Source of the DNA: Ectocarpus siliculosus
Lineage: Eukaryota > Sar > Phaeophyceae > Ectocarpales > Ectocarpaceae
DNA length: 64,000 nucleotides
Assembly: GCA_000310025.1 (NCBI GenBank)
Contig: FN649732.1
Location: 1,657,736 to 1,721,735 of the forward strand
Reading direction: 5' to 3'
Shown piece after piece: positions 33,901-63,980 of this stretch (position 1 is its first letter; each line of letters opens with the position of its first letter). Made by a program: the position numbers and the translations under genes. Under the pieces are notes generated by a model that saw nothing but the letters and a program-made list of their open reading frames with translations, searched no databases and had not been told where the DNA came from.

Positions 33901-36900
33901 GGGCGGGGTACTCATTGTCGTGCATGCCGTAGTCATTAGACCATTGACCTCGAATCCCTACAAAGCCGGGACGGAGCACGCCGGGTTCTCACCGGACCAG
34001 GCTCTCACATCACCAAGCGCGAAGCGCCGTGAGGTACTCGGCGAGTCGCATGAAGGGTGCGCTTCATCCTGCCAAGGGTGTTCGGCATCTTGTGCTTACT
34101 TCCTTGGGTACGGATGACAGCTGCGTATGAAGTACTGTATTTTCTGGTACTTTCACTTCCAGAAACAGCTGTAAGCACTGTGCAACTGCCTCGAGGGTGC
34201 TTGACCAATTCAACACAACGTGGTGCGATCATTCCCACTGCGCGGAGTGAGGGTTCTCGACCCCGTACAACATAATCTACTCCACCACCATTGTGGTCAC
34301 CGCAAAAAAAAAAAAATGCAAAAAAGACAAGCGGTAACTTGGTGGCCGAGCTCACGAAGTGATTGGCTTTACCTTACAACGTCGTTGCCAAGAGACGAAA
34401 ATTTAACCCCGATGGCAAACACCGAGGGAGGTGTGTGGGGGTCTTTGAACATTACAGAACAAAAAATCTCGTCCCTGCGCCCGGACCACGACGTTCCCCG
34501 AACAACAAACACGGGCGAGTTTTTTTTCGTTTCTGTCGTTGGTTTGATGTTTCGTCTTTCCAGGCTCCGTGCAGGCGGCGTTGCCCTGACGCACTTGCAT
34601 TTGGCAGAGGGTGATCTTAACCTCCCTGCCTTTTCCGTCCTCCTTCTCGTTGCCGAGTCCCGAAGGCATTGCCACTGTCGGGTTAGCAACTAAACAGCCC
34701 ACTTGGTACAAGTTCCGATGCACTTGCTCTTGGGAAAAAGAAGAAGAGGGGGAGGTTTGCCGCATTGCTCCCACTTCTGCCTCTGCCTCTACCTAAGCCC
34801 TCATCTAAACTCGCCTGCCAAAATCTCTGCCAAGTTTGTGGCCGACGGCTCAAATGCGCGGGATCAGGCGTGCCGCAAGACGTGGGAGACTACAGGTCAC
34901 GCAGCGACGTAGCGTGTGCCCGCGGATACGTTACGTGCATAGAAAACCAGTCACAACACAGCTCTTCCGTACGTGACGGACTCATCAAGAAAATGGGCGT
35001 GTACTTGGCTAGAGGGCAAAAATGGATAACATACTTTTGGCGAGAAAAGTCACGGCCACAACCACCACCAACAACAACATCGATGACTGCGACAACGACA
35101 ACACCCGCACGCACACGTCCAATAGAAGCCGAAATCACACCATTAGACTAGTCAACGCACCTCCGACAAAGGCCTTCCCGGGGGCGACCCCGGCATCCGC
35201 TGCCGCTCTCCCTCCACGCGCTCCAGCTCCTGGGTCCTCTGCGAGCGGACCCACTTTCTCAGATTCTCCACCCCAAAAGAGCCGCTAAACCTCAGGTCGA
35301 CGTCGTGCCCCATTTCCGCGTACCTGGGAAACATTGCCGGAAAGAGCGCCATGCCCCCAATAGTATTGCTCGTCGTCTGAGGTCACCATGCTGTCAGAGC
35401 GCCCCGGGGGCTCCGTGATTGCGTCGTGGCTTCAACCGTGAGTGTCCTTTGTTTGTTGTCCCATCTATTCTGGGTGCCGACCTGCCCTTTCCGTATGCGA
35501 TTGACGTACGCACGGTACCAAAACTGTTCCAATCGTACAAAGTTCTAGATCAAACTGGCCGGTGTGGGGCCAATGCACTGCTCCCACAACCACACGGCCT
35601 GCTACAACAATACTGGCGACGGTCGGTACCGAGTGTGCGAGTGTGCGAGGGCGTGGGTTGTGGTAGCAGACAACAGCAGTCGTGGGCACGCAGCAAAACG
35701 ACTGCAGAGATTGTTTCTCCAACTCAAAATGACAGCGGTCTCACGAAAATCCAGAACGCTCTTGGAAACCCGCCCGCTGAGGCCTAGAAACGGAGGTGTC
35801 ATCCCGAATGAAGCAACGAGTTGGACGCGGATATGGTGCATGTCCACAAATAAGCTCGAAAAAGGGCAGCGCAATAGTTTGCCAAAAGTACTACCCTAAA
35901 CAGTCATGGAGATTCGACACGTTACAAGTATGCATATGATCGAGCAGTGAGACCTCAGCTGCAAAAGGTGCCACAAGATACCCTGGCACCCGCCGGTTGG
36001 CACGAGATATTACGCACCCCCGGGGCTGATTTTCAAAGCTCATCACTCTGCAGCAAAACCAGCGACGGTGCCGAAAAGGCGGCCTGGCAACGTGACATCG
36101 AGAGCCACCCGCAAATGTATTGTTGACTGCCGTGGCATCCTGTTTGTCGAGGGGAATTCGATTGTAAAAATCCGCCCAGGGGTGTGTGGAATCTTGCAGC
36201 CTGCGGTATTGTTATCAGATTCGCGTGTGAGGACAACTGCCGGAAGGGCCAAGGAGAGGTGCAAATAACGTGCACCGAGCAAGGAGGGAGAGTGTACAAT
36301 CTGGATGGTACATGGTGTGAAGACACGAAAAAAAAAAAAAAACACCCACCGAGCGTTGCTCTTGAGCTTCTCTCTGACGGGAAGCGCCACCCTCTGTTCC
36401 CAGAACAACATGCGCCACGGCTTGTTGATCGATTTCTCCATTTCCTGGACCGCAAGGCAAAAAAAACACGAATGCGAAGGTAGCCGACGGTCTTCATGAN
36501 NNNNNNNNNNNNNNNNNNNNNNNNNNNNNNNNNNNNNNNNNNNNNNNNNNNNNNNNNNNNNNNNNNNNNNNNNNNNNNNNNNNNNNNNNNNNNNNNNNNT
36601 TTTTTTTGGAGGGGAATTTGTTTTTAAAATTCCCCCCGGGGGTGTGGGGATTTTTCCACCTTGGGTTTTTTTTTTTAGTTTGGGGTGGGGGGCCAACTCC
36701 GGGAGGGGCCAGGGGGGGGGGAAAATAACGGGCCCGGGCCAGGGGGGGGGGGTTTCCATTTGGGATGGTCCTGGGGGGGAAGCCCGAAAAAAAAAAAAAA
36801 AACCCCCCCCGGGGGTTGTTTTTGGGTTTTTTTTGGAGGGGAAGCCCCCCCTTTTTTTCCCAAAACACCTTGCCCCCGGGTTTTTTGTTGGTTTTTTCCT

Positions 36901-39011
36901 TTTCTTGGCCCCCAGGCCAAAAAAAACAGGAAGGGGAGGGTGGCCGACGTTTTTCATGTTGGGGGGGGGGGGGGGGGGGGGGCATGAAACCGTTGCAACG
37001 GATAACCCCTCGTTGCTCAAAAGCGTGGCAAGCGGCGTCGGGTGTCCCTACTCGACACACAAAGGTTGAGGTGACGTATTCGAAAAAAAAAACAGGAATG
37101 GACTAGACCTTCTCGGGGTAGGCATGAAGCATCTACGCAATTTACCTGGGAAACAGGATAATCCACGGCAACAAGGTGTTGAGGGGGACACAAGAGTAGG
37201 CGGGGTACCCTTACGCCGACACTCTTACCCAAAGCTCCATGCCAACCTCCAGCAGCACGGACAGGATGGCTATCTTCTCCTCCTTGATGTACTTGCAGCT
37301 CGTGACCTGCAGAGAGATGAAGTGGCACGTGGGGAAGGAGGGGCAAGCATGGTGCCTTGAACACTCGGCGGTCCCTCGCATGACACGTACCCCAAAAAAC
37401 GAGACGGACCGGATGGTCGTACTTGCTTGCAATCGTGACTGGACAAAACTTCGTGCAAACATCGTGACGCGATACCCTAGAAAGGGTAAGGGACAGCCGC
37501 GCCGATTTGACAAGACTGCTTCCAAGACCCACACCCATGCGTGCGAAAAGCGGTAAAGGGGGACGGGGAACGCAACGACGTTATCCCCGGGCCCAACACG
37601 TGCGCACTATCAACAGAGGTAGTCGTGGCTCCGATATTTGAGGGTGGTGTGATGAAGGCCCTCGACCCTCATGTGTCGGAGCCCCCTCTTTCGTTGTTCC
37701 GGAACAAGAGGATCAACCTCCTCCATCTGGATCCCCTCTATATCAATACATGTGTTCAATTAGTAAAAAAGGAAGATCGGGAATATCGAGAAACAAAGCA
37801 CTTGCAGCAGAGCATACATTAACCACGCGTGTGGTGGGCTGACTGACCGAATCGGCATGCCCAAAGCAAACCAGGCGGTTGTGATCGTGTCGGCAACGCT
37901 ATATTTCGTGTTTACATACAGTTCGTGCATGGAGTGGTGACATCTGCACAGAAGATTTGTCCCTGCAGACATTGATACGAGGCAACTTACATGTAAAATG
38001 CATGCACTACACGCCTACAGGGTCGAAACAACATGTTACAATGCCCTTCCCCGAGAAATTTCATGCACACGGACTGCAGCTACTGTACCGACGAGCCACC
38101 TAAAATGCCTTGCATACTTCGTTCGAAGTGCTTCACAGCACCACGACAGCAGTACCTCACATCTGTTGGGCCCAAAGCGGCGCTGACAGCTCTGACACTG
38201 TCCGCACCACCTTCAAGGAACAACAATCCGCTCTCAATCAACGCCACACATGTCCGAAGCATACATTCAAACCTACAGTACCCGCACCGTCTCTTCGTCA
38301 TCTCTGGTGTTAGTGGCTGGTGGAGATTGAAAGCATCTGCAGTCGGCGGGGAGCGAAACGGCGGGTCTCAACCCGCTTTAAAATCTACATACAATACATG
38401 GCATTCACAGAGACGGACCCAACAAAGTTCAACCGACAATAAATCTTGATCAGGGTAGGAGTAACATACGATTGGAACTGAGGTTGCTGGCCCTGAGCGC
38501 GTCATGGCCGCTAGCAGGAGCTAGCAACTGGTTCCACCGGCGGAAGACTGCTGTCGCCCCTTGCCCTGGGGCTAAACGCGCGATGCGATCCTCGGAACGT
38601 TTGATTTGTAGTCTACATGGTCTACTCACGGAGATGGGACTGGACCTAAAAGGTGTCGGTCAGCCCGAAAGGGGGCATTCTTGTCAGCATACCCATCCGG
38701 CCAACAACAGCTCGTTTGTTCCGCTGTCCTTCGTTCTAGCATCAATACAAATGCACCTCTCTCACGAGCAACTCCTCAATCCACACGCCCCGTACAGCAG
38801 TACGGATCGTCACATCTCTCACCCGCCACAACCCCCAACTGACTCGCCAACACACCTTCTTCGGCTGGCTGGGACTCTTTCTCGTCTGCTCGTTGGGATC
38901 CTTCTGGACGTCAATTTGACTATTGTCTTGTTGGCCGTCCAAGACCTGAGCGGGCGCCGCGGTAGAGAACGGAGCAGGACTTGCCGGTGTGATGTTCGGC
39001 GGCTGCTCCAT
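30939..39011 (-). CDS. Six-exon gene of unknown function, Gln/Ala-rich with coiled-coil tail
   Basis: Exons in transcript order: 39011-38856, 37306-37229, 35376-35161, 33827-33015, 32046-31717, 31019-30939 (stop TAG). All introns are phase 0 with GT-AG signals. The joined product is 557 residues. Residues 1-52 are Pro/Gln-rich. Residues 53-78 contain YIKEEKIAILSVLLEVGMELW, which loosely recalls the start of a Myb/SANT-like helix set. Residues 79-150 contain MGHDVDLRFSGSFGVENLRK. Residues 151-421 are low-complexity with Ala runs, a Gln run and a basic KRKK end that could be a nuclear localisation signal. Residues 422-557 are helical, with a Glu/Arg/Leu coiled coil. A nuclear regulatory role is a guess. 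The 35377-37228 intron contains the assembly gap, so an exon may be missing there. Confidence 0.65.
32584..32639 (+). repeat. Perfect 28-bp tandem duplication
   Basis: Two identical 28-base units (TTTTAAACATCTAAATAGGG plus eight bases) are directly adjacent. They lie in the intron between the fourth and fifth exons of the minus-strand gene. Confidence 0.9.
33905..34450 (+). repeat. Intronic repeat family Y, copy 2
   Basis: Nearly full-length counterpart of 7425-7950, with single-base changes throughout and a longer A run near 34305. It lies in the intron between exons 3 and 4 of the minus-strand gene, antisense to that gene. Confidence 0.8.
35998..36085 (+). repeat. Dispersed repeat family X, copy 2
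   Basis: It shares the order CACCCCC, GATTTTCAAAGCT, CAGCA and GTGCCGAAAA with 47395-47470. It is a single arm only, upstream of the assembly gap. Confidence 0.55.
36500..36599. other. Assembly gap (100 N)
   Basis: Exactly 100 N, the conventional size for a gap of unknown length. It interrupts the intron between exons 2 and 3 of the minus-strand gene. Long open frames through it have no meaning. Confidence 0.99.
36600..36982. other. Corrupted copy of 36140-36499 plus a 22-G run
   Basis: 36600-36959 follows 36140-36499 base for base at a constant offset of 460, without insertions or deletions, but with bases replaced by their neighbours so that homopolymers dominate. A run of 22 G follows (36961-36982). 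This is what a poor-quality read placed beside its own good copy would look like. It should not be annotated as biology. Confidence 0.85.
37617..37800 (+). repeat. Partial copy of the 44.5 kb element
   Basis: It begins TAGTCGTGGCTCCG and continues with a GGTGGT-TGA-AAGGC-CTCGA pattern, then TCGGAGCCCCCTCTT and GGGAATAT, the same order as 44499-44660. The right end of the element is not seen. Confidence 0.6.
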
Positions 39012-40664: not shown

Positions 40665-42581
40665 TCACACGAAACACAGAATGTTTCGGAAAATTTCTTC
40701 GTTTCCCCCCCGCAAACTGAACAGGTTCGCCACGAGCCCCCTGAAGTCATCCGCAGCTGCATCACCCGCTTCCTCAACCCTTGCAACTTTGTTGCGCCCC
40801 ACCTCCTGCTCAAGCCTTGCGTGGCACGCAAGTAAGAGGCCACGGCGCCACCACAACGATCGCACCAGGTATTGATGTATCTGCTCGAAAGTCGCATCAT
40901 TATTCTCAACATCATAACGTGAAAGTGATAAAGCTTTTGAGACCGGGGTATCGTCGTCCTTGTTCTTGGCCAGTTGATCTGCTCCCGCAGCCACCAGCAT
41001 TTCCAACAACTCCAGCTTCGATCCTCCGTTGTCGCCCGCTTCCGCTCCCACTGCCATGTGCAACGGGGTGTTGCCGTTCTGATCTAGTGCGTTGATGGCC
41101 GGCCCGTGCGTCAGCAAGGCAGCCACGGTCTCCAGGTTGTGGAAGCTGCAGGCGGCATGCAGGGGGGTCCGGCCATTCGAGTCAGGCACGACCTTCGCCC
41201 CAAGTCTGACCAGTGCATGCACAGCCCAGGGGTCGCATTTCGCTGCCGCGTGCAGGGGGGTATCGCTGTCGTCATTCGCAGCATTGACCTTCGCACCAGA
41301 TTCAAGCAGCGCAAGAAGTACACCCCAGTCGATTTCGCTGATTTCGGAACTAATCGAGGCGAAGAGCACCGTCTCGCTATTACCGGAAATGTTGGGGTTG
41401 GCTCCGGCAGCTAGCAGGGCTTTCACGGCTTCTAAATACCGCCATTGTACTGCCCGAAAGAGCGGAGTTGTGCCGGCCTCTTCGTGCCAGTCAAGGTCTG
41501 CACCGTGACGCGCGAGAGCCCCTATTGCGTCCGCCGCGCACCCCTCCACCGCCGAGTGGACAGGGCTGTCGAAGCCAGCCGGCCCGGAAATGACGGCGCC
41601 GGCCTTGATCAGCACGTCGATCGCTTCCGCCTCGTTTCCCTCGGCGGCCTTGTGCAGAGCCGTTAGGTTGCGCCAACTTCTCGTACTGGGGTCAGCTCCA
41701 TGTTTGAGCAGCGTTTCCATCATGGACACATTGCCGTAGAAGGAGGCGATATCCAGCGCGGCGAAGCTGTCACGCTCTTCGCACAGGTAGGCCATCGCAC
41801 GGCAGGACGTGTCGGCCCCTGCAACACAGAGGGCGTCCACAGCTGGCTCCCGGCCTCGTAACGCTGCGATCAAGAGAGGTGTGTGCCCATCGGTATCGGT
41901 GGCGTTGAGATCAGCCGTGGTCTTTGCGAGGTACTCGATGGCAGCTGCCTGTCCGCATTCAGCAGCAAAATGGAGAGCCGTACGACCTTTGCTATCCACC
42001 GCTGTTACCACCGCCCCACGCTCGACTAGCAGCCTCATCCCCTCCGCATGGCCTTGCGCCGCTGCGACGTCCAAAGGGGCGTATTTGGCTTCCTTGAGAA
42101 CTCGTAGAGAAACATTTGCCCCGGCGGCCAGGAGAGCTCTCGCCACCGCCACCTTGCCGTGGCGACATGCCACGTAGAGTGGCGTTCTTCCATTGCTGTC
42201 AAACGAATCAGGGTCGGCCCCTTCGATTAGCAGCGTTCGCACGACTAGGTCGTGGCCGTGGCAGGCAGCGATATGGATAGCTTCCATACCGTGACGGTCC
42301 TTCGAAGCTACAGACGCCCCGTGCTGAAGCAACTCACTGACGACACGTCGATGGCCATTCCGAGCAGCCGCGGCCACTCCGTTTCCTTTGGCCCCTGCCT
42401 TGAGCAGCATCGTGGCCAGCTCAACCTCTCCGTAAGCAGCAGCGCGCTCAAAGGGCACTTGCAGCCACTCGCCCCACACCTGGCACAGATTCAACGGATG
42501 TTGCGGTTGCAAGTGTGGAAAGTTGTGGTACCACCATGGAAAAAAAATGAAAGTAGGAAAAGACCCGCCTTTTGTCGACAA
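40665..42581 (-). CDS. Ankyrin-repeat protein, about 16 repeats
   Basis: One uninterrupted frame of 638 codons. From about residue 40 it is a solenoid of roughly 16 ankyrin repeats, many with the TPLH-A type signature (for example RTPLYVACRHGK, RTALHFAAECGQ, DTPLHAAAKCDP, NTPLHMAVGAEA). Such solenoids bind other proteins. A non-ankyrin tail of about 70 residues follows, with a WWRRG motif and an acidic/helical segment. The first 34 residues are not repeat-like. The sequence CTGTGCCAG at 42488-42480 is a good acceptor directly before VWGEWLQVPFERAAA, so the true coding exon is probably 42479-40665, with a 5' exon further right that I could not find. The start at 42581 is therefore doubtful. 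The specific partner and role are unknown. Confidence 0.85.
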   Translation of the reverse strand: MSTKGGSFPTFIFFPWWYHNFPHLQPQHPLNLCQVWGEWLQVPFERAAAYGEVELATMLLKAGAKGNGVAAAARNGHRRVVSELLQHGASVASKDRHGMEAIHIAACHGHDLVVRTLLIEGADPDSFDSNGRTPLYVACRHGKVAVARALLAAGANVSLRVLKEAKYAPLDVAAAQGHAEGMRLLVERGAVVTAVDSKGRTALHFAAECGQAAAIEYLAKTTADLNATDTDGHTPLLIAALRGREPAVDALCVAGADTSCRAMAYLCEERDSFAALDIASFYGNVSMMETLLKHGADPSTRSWRNLTALHKAAEGNEAEAIDVLIKAGAVISGPAGFDSPVHSAVEGCAADAIGALARHGADLDWHEEAGTTPLFRAVQWRYLEAVKALLAAGANPNISGNSETVLFASISSEISEIDWGVLLALLESGAKVNAANDDSDTPLHAAAKCDPWAVHALVRLGAKVVPDSNGRTPLHAACSFHNLETVAALLTHGPAINALDQNGNTPLHMAVGAEAGDNGGSKLELLEMLVAAGADQLAKNKDDDTPVSKALSLSRYDVENNDATFEQIHQYLVRSLWWRRGLLLACHARLEQEVGRNKVARVEEAGDAAADDFRGLVANLFSLRGGNEEIFRNILCFV

Positions 42582-49500: not shown

Positions 49501-52500
49501 CGCCGTATGGATCGTTCGCTCGCAAAACAAACCTCAACCGAGTAGGTCGACCAGCTTCGGACCAGCTTGGCCGGAGCGCTAGACGGCGCTACCGCGACCC
49601 AGGAGGACCTTGCTGGCGGACGCACTGGGAGAGCTACGGCGAGGAGGCGTAGCCGGGTGCAGGGTCTGAACGGGCTCGACAGGTACGTCCTGTAGGGGTG
49701 ATGATGGTGATCGTTCTTGCAGTGCTTCTAATGCCGTTGTTGTTGGTGGTGGTGGTGTTGTTGTTGATGATGATGGTGGTGGTGGTGCTGGTGTTGTTGT
49801 TGATGATGATGGTGGTGGTGGTGCTGGTGCTGCTGCTGCTGCTGGTGCTGCTGCTGCTGCTGTTGTTCCTGTTGTTATTGTTGTGCTGTCGCTGGTGATG
49901 GTGATGGTTCTCGTGGTGCAGGTGCAGGTGCTGCTGCTGCTGCTGCTGCTGCTGCTGTAGTTCCTCGCGGCAACCAGGAGAGTCCCGTCCTCGCGGAAAG
50001 AGACGCGGCTTCCCCGGCCAGAGCTCTGATGCCACTCCCTCCCATTTCAAGGAAGAGGAGACGAGGTTCGCTGGCGGCACGGGGAAGGTGCTCTGCCTGT
50101 TTTCGCTCTATCGTGGCGGTTTCACGAGTTGTGGGACAGAACCGCTAACGTGGTGTGTATGTTTTTGTTATTCTTGCCCGTTTCTCAGGGAGATGGAGGT
50201 GTCCAGTCCGATGATGCCGCTATCGTCTCATGAGGGAGGGGGACGAGGAGGGGCGAGGAGCGGCAGCGGAAGGAGGCGTGAAGACGACGTCGGGATGGGG
50301 TTGGGGCCTGAGGTAGGACTGTAGGGTAAGGGTTGGGGGGTGCGCGAAATGAAGGATTCGCTATCCCGGAGGGGGGCTTGCGCCCCATGGCAGGACCTAG
50401 TGTGGCACCGCTCAAGCGGACACGCGGGGAACGGGCCTGCGTTATTTTGGCGAACGGTGGTAGAGTTTGAGTGAACATTGGGTGTCTCTTCAGGTTGAAA
50501 CAAACGAGGGGGTGATTTCTGAGGTGGAACAGGAGGTACAGTTTGGGTATTGTTGTCGTCCCTCGCAGGAGGAGGGAAACCAAGCGTTATTGGCTGTGTT
50601 GTTGGGCTGGAAGCAGCGTTTGCAGGGCGGAGATGTCCTAGAAGCCGTGGTCGTTTCAGGGCGATCGATCGGGTGAGTGTCAGACCGCACGCCACCGTCG
50701 TAAGGTGTTCCCCGTGTGTGCAGTAAAGAAATGCATGCCCAGCGTTCCCACCCGCGGCTTTGGTCCCGGCAAGGTTGTACCAACGGCGCTGCCGTACCCG
50801 TGGTCCGAGAGATCGAGCTGCTGCAACGTTCGGGTTTACGACGACAACCACCCTTCACCCAGGCGCCCTTCGTCTTACCCCGCCTTGTGTGTTTGGAAAC
50901 CGAATCCATCCAGGACGAACAACGCTTGTCGGACGTGGTGGAAACCCTTCGAGCGAGACTGGAGGAGGCGTCTCAGTCTCTGTCGGGCATGGAAGAGGAG
51001 AGGGCGCGGCTGGAGAAACAGGTCGAGTCCCGGGAAGAAGAGATAGCCCGCCTCGGCAGGCAGACCGGCAGCGACACCAACATCGAGAAGGTAATGGAAA
51101 TAGAATACATACGCACGTGTATCGCGTCAGTCGTTTCGTTTATTTTCTGGGGAATGCTGTAGAAAAGTGACAATGGTACCGAACTCGAAAGCATACTGCC
51201 CACTACCCTGGCAGGAAACTCCCGGATGGACGCATCAATTCTGCAATGAACACCAAGAACAACTGAACTCGCCAAAAACAGAGAAACAGCATGAATACGA
51301 ATTGCCTTGTTTTTCCTTTTTGTAAACAACGATGCCCGTCCCCAGAAAGCTTTTGTTCGACAAACGTTGGCACCGCGAAACGAAGGGTGCCATCGAAGGG
51401 CACCATGAAGCGTGATTCTACCAATAATTTTTCCTGTTTGACCGGTTTGTGTCCACGGATACATGGAGTAGTCCAACGTTGCTCCGGCTTCTGTCAACAT
51501 CATTTCGCCACCCTCGCTGGCTGAAATACCCATGACAGGCTACATGGGTACGTACGTCCACCCGAAACCATGTGTGCATGTCTGGCGATTGATTAGTCAA
51601 ATAAGAGAGATTAGTACCAAGGAAAGTGAGTGTGTCCCCCATCCCTTCCGATTGGCGGAAACCCGACTCTGTTCATTTCGAGGGCTACAGCCAAACACGG
51701 TGTACACTTACTGCCGTGCACGACGCACGACGCTGAGAACACCGACCCCCCACCCACGATCGTTCTCCCTGGCGCCCTGCATGGTGTACCAACAGGTGAC
51801 GCTGGCGCACGCTTACGAAGCGAACCAGCGCATCGTGGACCAGCTGAACGACCAGGTCGACTTCTTGAACAGGCAGCTGGCCAACAGGGAAGCCCAGCTG
51901 GCAGAGGTGGGCGGGAAGTGAAAATTGAGAGTGTAAACAATTGAGGATTCTTGTTCCCGATTGAGTTGCCCCCACCGCAGCTGCTCCATCCTCTTGAGGA
52001 CGCGCAGTCAATGATCTAACAACTAAAGCGTGCCAAACACGAGTACGCCCCCAGCCGTAGGGTAGGAGTCGCGCATCGTCCCAATTGCCGAACGCGTTGC
52101 TTGCAAGGGGATTGCAACGACGAGAACCAAGACAGGCGGCACGTTTGACTATCGGGCGGTTCCTGTGTTGTTTGGTAGAGCGTGAGAGTGATACTCGCAT
52201 GCAGGTTCGACAAGCATGGGCCCAAAAAAATGGCGCTGAAGGTTTAAACTGCAGTCGCTTCTTGGCGTTCTTCAGCTGTTTGCTCAAACAAACCGCATGC
52301 CTACCCTCGGCGGCCGGATTATCCACTCGCTTTTTTTGTTCGCTTTCGAGGCGCTCCCTTCTCCAATCTGTATGTTTCTCGGAGCGAAACGCGGTTATCT
52401 CTCATGCGCTCTCGCCCCTCGGTTTCGGTCGGACAGGCCCGAAAAGAGACGTCCAACAGGGGGAAGGCGGAGCCGATGACGACGACGGCCGAGCTGGAGG

Positions 52501-52540: not shown

Positions 52541-52614
<74 letters not shown>

Positions 52615-55600
52615 CTCTCTCTCTGTATCTCCCTCTGTATCTGCTGCTACTCTTGCTGTTGTTGCTATTCCGCTCTCGGTCACGTCAGTTCTTGCGTCCG
52701 CCTCTATCTTCACAGCACCCTTTACACGTACACACTTGGCGAGGAATCACCGCTTGTACAGTAGGCAGGGGAGTGACATTGTCGCTCCGATACTCCTTTG
52801 GTTTATACCGCATCGTCTGCCCCGGCATCTAGAGCAACTACCCCTGACATACTCCTTGCTTGTCTTGCTTGTGTCTTCGTCGTGTTTTTTGCGACAGACC
52901 CTTGCCCGTACGCTTGAGGAAGACAACGATCGTCTGTCGAGACGGACCGCAGAACTCGAGAACAAAGCCTCCGCCAACAGCTCCGGCAAGGGGGGGGGGG
53001 AGGAGGAAGGGTGGGAGGTGGTCGGGGAGGGAGAGCACGAGCGGTCACAACTCGAAGCGGTAAACTGCGTTTCGTTGGCGTTACTCACAGGACGTTTATC
53101 GAAACATCTAGTTCCAAGGTTGCTGACCTTGGTCTTGGCAAGCGAAAACGAAGACTCGGAAGCTCACAAGTCCACCACCACAACGATCGATGTTGTGTGG
53201 ACGAGTATCTCTCTTTTTTTTTTTTTTTTTGCAGTGAAATTTGATCGAGGAAGAACCTGCCTCAAGATGTTCTTCGTTTTTGGAGTGAAATTCTTCTTGG
53301 TTGCTCGTTCTAGTCGCCACCCTCTCGCCCACGCGCACGACATCGAGCCTGCACCAGATCGCCCCGCTGCGCCCACTCCAACTTGTACACAACGCGGCTT
53401 TCCCCTGTTCCCCACGTCGATGCCGCCATCCAGACCTTGGGAGAGACGAAGAAGGACTTGGTCAAGGCAGCGGCAGCAGCAAGCGAGGCGACGGCCGACG
53501 CTGAGGCTCTTCGGAAACGCGTGGCGTCCGTCCAGGGGGAGGTGCGAAACCGCCATGTTTTCAATCATGAGGCAGATAGGAGCCGCGTTTTTTTTTTGCC
53601 TACCGTAATTTTTCATTATCTTTGCATGTCTAGTCATCTGCGGTTGAGATTTCGCTCACTATGCCACTATCTTGCATGTCTAGTGATCTGCTGTTGAGAT
53701 TTCGCTCGGTTCTAGCAGACGACTAAGGAGTGCCTAATCAAAACCCGGGACTTCACCCCTACATCAAAGCAACCCACGGGAGGGTTGTCAGCGAAATTTA
53801 TCGCCAATCTCTCCACTGATCACAGAGTAAAAAAATAGAGCTGAGTCATGATGGAGTGACATGGTTCACTCGCACGGCGGCGTTTGCTGGTGTACTTCAG
53901 GGCGGAGACTTGGTTTAGTCCCGTGGCGTGCTCTCCAATCACTGCCTGCAAGATCAAGAATATAAGTAAGGCATCCGTTTATCCGCCTCTGTCCATGCCC
54001 GCCCTCTGTAGGTTGCTCGGCTACAGGGGGAAGCGGCAACCAGGACCGAAAGGCTGGAACAGCTGTCACGAGAGCGGGAGGAGCTTCTGGAGAGGCTCAA
54101 GACATCCGCGAAGGACCTAGAGAGCGCTGAGGTCGAGGCTGCGAGCGGAGTCGCACGGGAGAGGAAGGCGGAGAGGCAGCGGGGAGAGGAAGCTCGAAGA
54201 AGCAGGTGCGTTTCGTTTTCTCACTATGTTCCGGGTTGGCTGGTGTAGCGCGGCGTGTTCGGTCGCAGCTGGCCGCGAGACGAGTGTAGCACCGTGCTCG
54301 TTATCGCATGCAATGGTGAAGTTGGTCGAGATACGACCAGCGAAGATGTCCACCTCTCAAAGTCACCGTCTCTCCTGCCCAATTCACGACGGCACTGCAG
54401 CCAAGTGCAAGTGAAATTGCCTCAAATGTTTTCGTACAAGTACGAGTGATGGCTCACACGCGAGACCGATTTATAGGGCTCGATTTCTCCATAACCAGGA
54501 GGGTTGTTGCGCAGACCAAAGCTTGGCATGTTCACTCTTCGCAATGATATTTGGACGTCGGCGGCCTCCCTTCTCTGCACAAGGCCGACAAGAGATCGCC
54601 TCTTACTTGCTCACGTGGCCCAAGCGCGCAGCAGAGGGAGTTCCCACCCGCTGCTAGCCCGAACCATGAGAAGGCACACACCCTCCCATGCCAACAACAA
54701 AGTCAGTTCTCGTTGAACGAATCGGAAGGCGCTGGAGGTAAATCAAAACGGGACTTGTAGCGTACAGCGGCCACTTCCCGCCAGTATTGTCATTAAGCCC
54801 CCCTTCCCAGTGAAACCTATCCTGGTCCGGAGAAAAACCGGCGTATCGCTCCGTCCCGGAGTTGTAGGGATGCGAGGTCAACGGTCTAACGACAACGGCG
54901 TGCGTCTACACGTGTACACCCCCCATCTCTCCGTTCCTTTGGCACAGGGCGACCACCGAGCGCCTCTCCGTCGTGCAAGAGCAGACGGAGTTCCTTGCCG
55001 AGGAGGCCGAGTCCGCAAAGGCGGGGGAAGGGGTCGCGGCCAGGCGCGCGGCGGCGGCGGAGGCCCGTGCCGCCGAGGCGGAGCTCGACGCGGCGGCCCT
55101 CGAGAGAGCGCTGCGGGCGGAGTCTCGCCGAGCGCTGGGGGCGGAGGGGGAGGCGGCGAACGCGAGGGAGGCGGAGTTGGCGGTGGAGGACCTGAGGGAA
55201 AGGATGGAGAGGTTGCGGTCGAGGCTGGAGGCGTCGGAGGCTGCCAGGTGTGTGTTGGATCGCTTAGGATACCACGCCCCCAAGACCGACGCTCAACTAC
55301 TGCGCGTTCCATCATCAAGTTGATCCGTAGCTGGGAAGCCTCTCGACGAGGGGGTTCCAACGCCCCCCCCTTTCTGCATCGCTGCTCCCTTTGCTGCATA
55401 GTTATTAAGCTTTGTCCAGTGGGTGCGATATCTTGTGCGACCTACGGTAGGTGATCGCGGACCGGGGCCGGATGAGAGGAGTGTTCCTTTCGAGTTTTTT
55501 TTTTTATGTGGAGGAATGTCGCTCTTGCTTGCGGGGCGAGCAGTGTGCCTTTCGTAGACGAGATTGGAAGCGTTGGTGTGTGTGTGTTTGTGGCATGCGT

Positions 55601-63960: not shown

Positions 63961-63980
63961 GGGGGGGGGGGGGGGGGGGG
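63961..63980 (+). repeat. 20-G run near the window end
   Basis: A run of 20 G is followed by A-rich sequence to the end of the window. The run after the assembly gap at 36961 looks similar, so this may also mark poor sequence near a gap. Confidence 0.6.

Follow-up and report, generated by a model that had tools for sequence, protein, structure and literature searches.

The 64,000-nucleotide window of Ectocarpus siliculosus DNA analyzed here contains, next to a scaffold gap, a blurred second copy of the sequence on the other side of that gap, and this copy very probably is not genomic sequence. As judged from the sequence, it is best explained (at a probability of roughly 0.93) as the slippage stutter of one or more minus-strand capillary (Sanger-type) reads that ran into a 22-nucleotide G tract from its right-hand side. 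The blurred copy consists of two overlaid registers, one base apart, of its clean counterpart.

Clean copy, gap, blurred copy and G tract

The clean copy (36140..36499, plus strand) forms the right end of the left contig, stops about 1 base short of the G run called in the other contig, and gave a single match, its own locus, when searched against the genome. It is followed by a scaffold gap of exactly 100 N (36500..36599) and then by the blurred copy (36600..36960), which forms the left end of the right contig and presumably comes from minus-strand reading across the G tract. The blurred copy also retrieved only its own locus from the genome, in a search that missed even the 71%-identical clean copy. 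Because the flanking contigs overlap by about 360 bp, the 100-N gap is likely to be a "negative" gap.

The blurred stretch begins directly at the G22 homopolymer (36961..36982, plus strand), the putative slippage point, whose called length is unreliable. On the side of G22 away from the gap the sequence is clean (36983..37132, plus strand), and the transition rate was 0.69 in this 150-nt right flank versus 0.38 in the gap-facing left flank. A mechanical open reading frame on the minus strand (36043-37020) spans both copies and the gap.

Two registers in the blurred copy

The first-pass annotation had described an indel-free duplicate at a constant offset, rich in homopolymers and adjoining 22 G, and this description was confirmed: positions 36600-36959 align to 36140-36499 at an offset of 460 with zero indels and 257 of 360 bases identical (71%), and homopolymer runs number 252 in the clean copy versus 126 in the blurred copy. 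Its further observation that bases had been replaced by a neighboring base holds for all 98 mismatches away from the ends and can be sharpened, as 96 of the 98 carry the right-hand base of the clean copy, that is, the neighbor on the side of the tract (neighbor matches averaged 43% in 1000 shuffles and peaked at 59%). When the clean copy is denoted A, 357 of the 359 testable positions in the blurred copy show either A[i] or A[i+1]; the next-best register pair (-1,0) reaches 85%, and 2000 shuffles averaged 43% and never exceeded 51%. The two exceptions, which count against the mechanism proposed below, are both A[i-1]; these sole calls outside both registers fall, in the read direction, past the A15 tract of the clean copy (36328..36342, plus strand), which the blurred copy renders as A16 (36787-36802). 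Positions at which the two registers agree, having equal neighbors, were called correctly in 108 of 108 cases, and 249 of the 251 discordant positions took one of the two bases, with a split of 149 to 100 in which the smaller share belongs to register +1, the right-hand neighbor.

These counts contradict random miscalling. A generic low-quality read left beside its own good copy, with the G tract coincidental or itself miscalled, would suit the poor quality of the copy and its position at a contig end, but random errors should neither spare every equal-neighbor site nor confine practically all discordant calls to two named bases, and we regard this explanation as very unlikely. Thus, the earlier proposal of an assembly artefact, with a bad read placed beside its own good copy, gains support from the offset alignment and from the register fit, and the read was indeed poor; what has to be abandoned is the generic character of its errors, since they form a fixed two-register superposition starting at G22.

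The same counts bear on a real local duplication that diverged by neighbor-copying mutation or gene conversion. The constant offset and the 71% identity would be compatible with such an origin, but the ordinary divergence expected of a real duplication was not found, there being no indel in 360 bp and only neighbor-base changes. The right-hand neighbor was written into 100 of the 251 discordant sites while all of the equal-neighbor sites stayed intact, and we know of no mutation process that acts in this way. A similar blur, mirror-imaged, also stands beside long G/C tracts and gaps at other sites (see below), and the chance that the duplicate is real appears negligible.

The mixing ratio of the two registers was followed from the tract outward. 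Register +1 accounted for 10/33, 15/36, 18/43, 25/55, 18/44 and 14/39 of the discordant positions in six successive segments, i.e. for 30-45%, with no growth with distance and the lowest share beside the tract. This flat ratio indicates a fixed shift rather than a progressive dephasing. Poly-G ends and neighbor miscalls are typical of two-color short reads, and an artefact combining two-color poly-G with cumulative phasing would fit the blurred copy in kind. Such reads, however, reach at most about 300 nt, their blur rises with cycle number, and they carry their G run at the distal end, whereas here the blur and the tract together extend over 383 nt from one side, the registers mix at a flat ratio, the G run (which would appear as C in the inferred read direction) precedes the blur in that direction, and mirrored cases exist. 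A short-read origin is therefore highly improbable.

The slippage account, by contrast, would run as follows. One or more minus-strand reads would have crossed the G22 tract from the right, and either the polymerase slipped within the tract or the template already contained both tract lengths, n and n+1. Past the tract, two sets of molecules shifted against each other by one base would have been read jointly, with the base-caller choosing the stronger peak position by position, and such a mixed signal would produce a copy that is rich in homopolymers, keeps a constant offset and has no indels. With the two copies 71% identical, the overlap with the left clean contig, which ends at the same tract, may have gone unrecognized by the assembler, and the unmerged contigs would then have been set side by side with a 100-N gap, giving a false duplicate. 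The platform behind 36600-36982 was probably of the capillary type; a 90-residue stretch encoded in this genome is identical to chain 4b0n_A, a protein of Ectocarpus siliculosus, and the Ectocarpus v1 assembly is Sanger-based according to PMC7386250. PMC6141087 reports slippage artefacts in PCR at homopolymer runs of at least 8 nt and stutter products in sequence chromatograms. Sanger stutter past mononucleotide runs likewise gives a one-base-shifted mixed signal beyond a long homopolymer, but in the present case the signal was left untrimmed and retained as assembly consensus, where it forms a false duplicate across a gap.

Recurrence at other long G/C tracts

The genome-wide tract counts come from samples and are not a complete census. 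A gap lay within 400 bp at 21 of 25 sampled sites with G/C tracts of at least 20 nt, and 4 of the 25 had none nearby. At 14 of the 15 such sites at which it could be measured, the gap-facing flank was blurred, with the blur between tract and gap, a distribution that further argues against a generic low-quality read in the window. The exception was the gap-facing flank of L039, with a transition rate of 0.64; the cut-off separating it from the blurred flanks (0.17-0.54) was set after the values were known. Six sites (L016, L033, L034, L041, L077 and L080) were counted as gapped and not as blurred, because at most 25 nt separate the tract from the gap, too few for a 60-nt flank to be measured; at L080, the 25 nt from tract to gap were not blurred (0.88). 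Of the 21 gapped sites, 11 have an N run that extends past the extracted stretch, and "blurred" there denotes a low transition rate only. The gap was short (57 or 100 N) at the other 10, and an overlap across it was found at 7 (two weaker). Tracts of 15 G/C were clean and without a gap in 9 of 10 cases, and all six A/T tracts of at least 20 nt that had no G/C tract of at least 17 nt nearby were clean.

To compare blurred segments with the sequence across the gap, 13 segments were taken from 9 hand-picked sites, the window included, at which the gap measures 57 or 100 N, so that both contigs are in view. Twelve of the 13 fit two adjacent registers across the gap at 0.82-1.00, versus a background of 0.39-0.45. 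For L040, the fit of the right-hand segment is poor (0.65, or 0.77-0.78 with three registers), and the best offset of L044 is barely above the runner-up (0.85 versus 0.77). The overlaps at L040 and L044 are the weaker ones; these sites failed the strict duplicate scan or passed it away from the gap, and were measured by a looser whole-segment search.

In six segments (L013 right, L038, L044, L076 left and both of L078), the fit rose from 0.85-0.95 to 0.97-1.00 once a third register was allowed, although a third register also lifts the fit by chance and these gains lack a shuffle control. They bear on a narrower variant of the slippage account, in which both tract lengths, n and n+1, were present in the template itself, through slippage in the cloning host or as two alleles, and no slippage occurred in the sequencing reaction. 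The same two-register blur would be expected from such a template, and the discordant split of 149 to 100 in the window would suit a two-part mixture, but the third-register gain, chance aside, suits repeated slippage better than two alleles. We consider this variant rather unlikely.

The strict scan, which required at least 56 of 60 matching bases at 20 loci (19 plus-strand sites, one of them present twice), detected just three blurred overlaps, at L002, L013 and L038. Its hits in L016, L024 and L044 were assigned to a 67-68-bp tandem repeat (TRF on L016 and L044; L024 and L044 represent one site) and the hit in L036 to a triplet array (TRF), and neither was counted as blur. A second hit in L013 is a direct repeat at about 220 bp, as read from the sequence, and was set aside as an ordinary repeat.

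At L013, L076 and L078 the tract is crossed by both contigs, and each contig is blurred on its gap-facing side only, so that reading through the tract in opposite directions is accompanied by a mirror-image blur. When the preferences within base pairs were pooled over nine of the thirteen segments (L044, L074 and both segments of L040 were omitted as poorer fits), leftward and rightward reads correlated at 0.92 in read-strand letters and at -0.11 in plus-strand letters, each over six points. The preference for A over G does not hold equally in all segments, being 4:6 in L038 and 29:25 in the rightward segment of L078.

Meaning for the assembly

Extended to the genome, these data tip the balance slightly toward the view that many short gaps are false: they would sit at G/C tracts of roughly 17-20 nt or longer and be flanked by false duplicates, blurred by slippage, that decode into two or three superposed registers. 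Larger gaps at such tracts would also have blurred, unreliable ends, and a genuine, marked excess of long G/C tracts would lie beneath. If this is true, register decoding could reveal such overlaps without new sequencing. The pattern also lends itself to a simple screen for two joint signs, a depressed transition rate in the stretch from a G/C tract to a gap and an overlap in two registers between the sequences on either side of that gap. In the assembly, the blurred copy now passes for a duplication, adds homopolymers and contributes to a spurious reading frame, and counts of low-complexity sequence, local duplications, homopolymers or gaps could be misled in this way.

False duplications in assemblies likewise arise when overlapping contigs are laid side by side and a stretch appears twice. 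Their usual causes are haplotype differences or repeats, whereas the cause here would be a one-base slippage at a G/C tract. Among the matches listed, no description of an artefact of this kind in an assembly was found, which does not imply that none has been published. An excess of long G/C tracts is common to this genome and to that of Caenorhabditis, whose poly-G/poly-C tracts are the subject of PMC2211496; that paper treats the biology of the tracts, whereas here they matter as assembly breakpoints.

A blurred duplicate beside a gap and a G tract

A gap of exactly 100 N follows the clean copy (36140-36499), and beyond it the next contig starts with a homopolymer-rich, blurred stretch (36600-36960) that runs into a tract of 22 G (G22, 36961-36982), followed by ordinary sequence. 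Direct alignment of the clean copy with the blurred copy (36600-36959) at an offset of 460 gave 257 of 360 identical positions and zero indels, in agreement with the indel-free duplicate at constant offset described by the first-pass annotation. When each copy was searched against the genome (189 Mb in 492 contigs, some of 6-9 Mb), its own place was the sole match, the search being one that misses weak matches and did not return the other copy in either case. The transition rate, i.e. the share of neighbouring bases that differ, was 0.69 over 150 nt on the right of G22 and 0.38 over 150 nt on its left, the window average being 0.74 (SD 0.05, tiles of 150 nt). The left contig stops about 1 base before the G run as called, and hence one contig ends just before the tract and the other after crossing it, i.e. 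both break at the tract.

The blur follows a simple rule. At 357 of 359 positions the blurred call equals either the clean base at the same position (register 0) or the next one (register +1), whereas 2000 shuffles of the blurred copy averaged 43% and peaked at 51%; the runner-up pair of registers (-1,0) fitted 85%. Where neighbouring bases of the clean copy are equal, all 108 blurred calls are correct, and where they are unequal (n = 251), 149 calls correspond to register 0, 100 to register +1 and 2 to the preceding base. Register +1 had a share of 30% to 45% in each of six segments, being lowest beside the tract and showing no steady rise outward; the shift thus occurred once, at the start, without accumulation. 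Both preceding-base calls lie beyond an A15 tract in the read direction; a weak further slip at A15 would be expected to produce such exceptions, but two cases are only a hint.

The first-pass annotation had proposed an assembly artefact, and this reading held: the calls fit two registers and the pattern recurs elsewhere, and the blurred duplicate is a well explained artefact of both sequencing and assembly that in itself has no biological significance. What makes it worth reporting is its recurrence and the fact that a mechanical screen can recognise it. An example of a spurious frame produced by the artefact is the mechanical ORF of 325 residues at 36043-37020 (minus strand), which spans both copies and the N gap between them.

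Recurrence at long G/C tracts

Long G/C tracts on one contig (C1) were taken in search-listing order, yielding 25 sites: 19 from the plus strand among the matches listed, with tracts within 1 kb merged, and 6 from the minus strand, the first six listed that were not already covered. A gap lay at most 400 bp from the tract at 21 of the 25 sites, and at the four sites with no gap in the fetched stretch (L012, L036, L075, L079) both flanks were clean (0.68-0.78). The flank between tract and gap was at least 60 nt long at 15 gapped sites and was blurred in 14 of them (0.17-0.54), L039 being the sole exception (0.64). At six sites (L016, L033, L034, L041, L077, L080) the gap begins within 25 nt of the tract, and the 25 nt available at L080 show no blur (0.88). 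Ten of the 21 gaps are short, nine having 100 N and one 57 N; the other 11 extend past the fetched stretch, leaving the other contig out of view, and blur was judged there by transition rate alone.

A cross-gap overlap was found at seven of the ten short gaps, clear at L002, L013, L038, L076 and L078 and weaker at L040 and L044. It was not seen at the short gaps of L016 and L034, neither of which has a testable flank, or at L039, where the duplicate scan found no blurred match in the other contig. At L039 (991-1247) two G tracts flank a 100-N gap and the stretch from the first tract to the gap is unblurred (0.64); this site is either a misjoin of a different type or a genuine insertion.

The background was assessed in the window plus eight arbitrary 10-kb stretches (144 kb), where five runs of N occur, of which three extend over thousands of bases. 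Only 8 of 2450 tiles of 100 nt fell under 0.5; seven belong to the duplicate at 36140-36982 and the eighth, in L050, contains a C23 tract near a gap. Among the first 10 listed tracts of exactly 15 G/C, nine showed neither blur (0.64-0.81) nor a gap in at least 385 nt fetched per side, and the tenth sits between a gap and a C23 tract. Among the first 10 listed A/T tracts of at least 20, six (A20 to A27) were clean (0.60-0.80) and without a gap, and the other four blur near a gap, each with a G/C tract of 17-21 nearby. The breaking element is thus a G/C run at least about 17-20 long, not just any homopolymer.

Read strand and proposed origin

The tract is crossed by both contigs at L013, L076 and L078, where the picture is a mirror image: blur lies right of the tract in the left contig and left of the tract in the right one, and the outer flanks are clean. 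In a cross-gap register test of 13 hand-picked segments from nine sites (window and L074 included), 12 matched the opposite contig at 0.82-1.00 in two neighbouring registers (background 0.39-0.45), the right-hand blur of L040 reaching only 0.65. At L044 the best offset (0.85) had a close runner-up (0.77), and a near-complete fit took a third register in six segments, as judged without a shuffle baseline.

When A and G compete, in read-strand letters, A wins 87:10 in the pooled leftward and 117:35 in the pooled rightward reads; this lean was present in eight of nine segments, barely so in the right-hand one of L078 (29:25), and was reversed at L038 (4:6). The six pooled pair preferences of leftward and rightward reads correlated at 0.92 in read-strand letters versus -0.11 in plus-strand letters. 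Preferences that follow the read strand implicate the sequencing chemistry rather than the genome. In dye-terminator chemistry, G peaks that follow an A are characteristically weak.

We infer the following chain of events. Minus-strand capillary reads would enter the tract, C22 in their letters, and slippage, in the sequencing reaction or beforehand in the template, would yield tract lengths n and n+1, so that the calls for all sequence past the tract would mix two superimposed registers. With identity to the left contig reduced to 71%, the overlap would then go unrecognised, and scaffolding would put the contigs next to each other across a 100-N gap. According to PMC7386250, the v1 Ectocarpus assembly (1561 scaffolds) came from Sanger data and formed the basis of the linkage-group v2 (N50 6.5 Mb) and of later versions.

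Genome-wide scale and other features

G/C tracts of at least 20 with a non-G letter in front occupy 1144 + 1175 = 2319 genome places, about 11 times as many as A/T tracts of at least 20 (100 + 101 = 201), counts that are inflated by tracts appearing once on either side of a gap and by runs that the blur itself created. Tracts of like length are present in both contigs at L002, L038 and L044, which speaks for real tracts. The excess is reminiscent of that described for Caenorhabditis in PMC2211496. If the C1 sample were representative, hundreds of gaps would have such blurred ends, as extrapolated from 25 sites of a single contig.

A 67-68-bp tandem repeat is common to two C1 sites (L016:2108-2313 and L044:1751-1883). 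Its units end in G runs, the last L044 unit running into a G21 tract, and long G tracts could in part derive from units of this kind. The second tract of the window, G20 at 63961-63980, has a clean left flank (0.64) and 20 nt of right flank inside the window.

The window also holds an uninterrupted frame of 638 residues (40665-42581, minus strand) rich in ankyrin repeats (Pfam Ank_2, E 1.9e-69), TGG/TGC-type arrays at 49744-49957 and, at 52544-52636, 46.5 tandem copies of the dinucleotide TC. A stretch of 90 residues encoded by the genome matches, without a difference, PDB chain 4b0n_A, a type III polyketide synthase from the brown alga Ectocarpus siliculosus.
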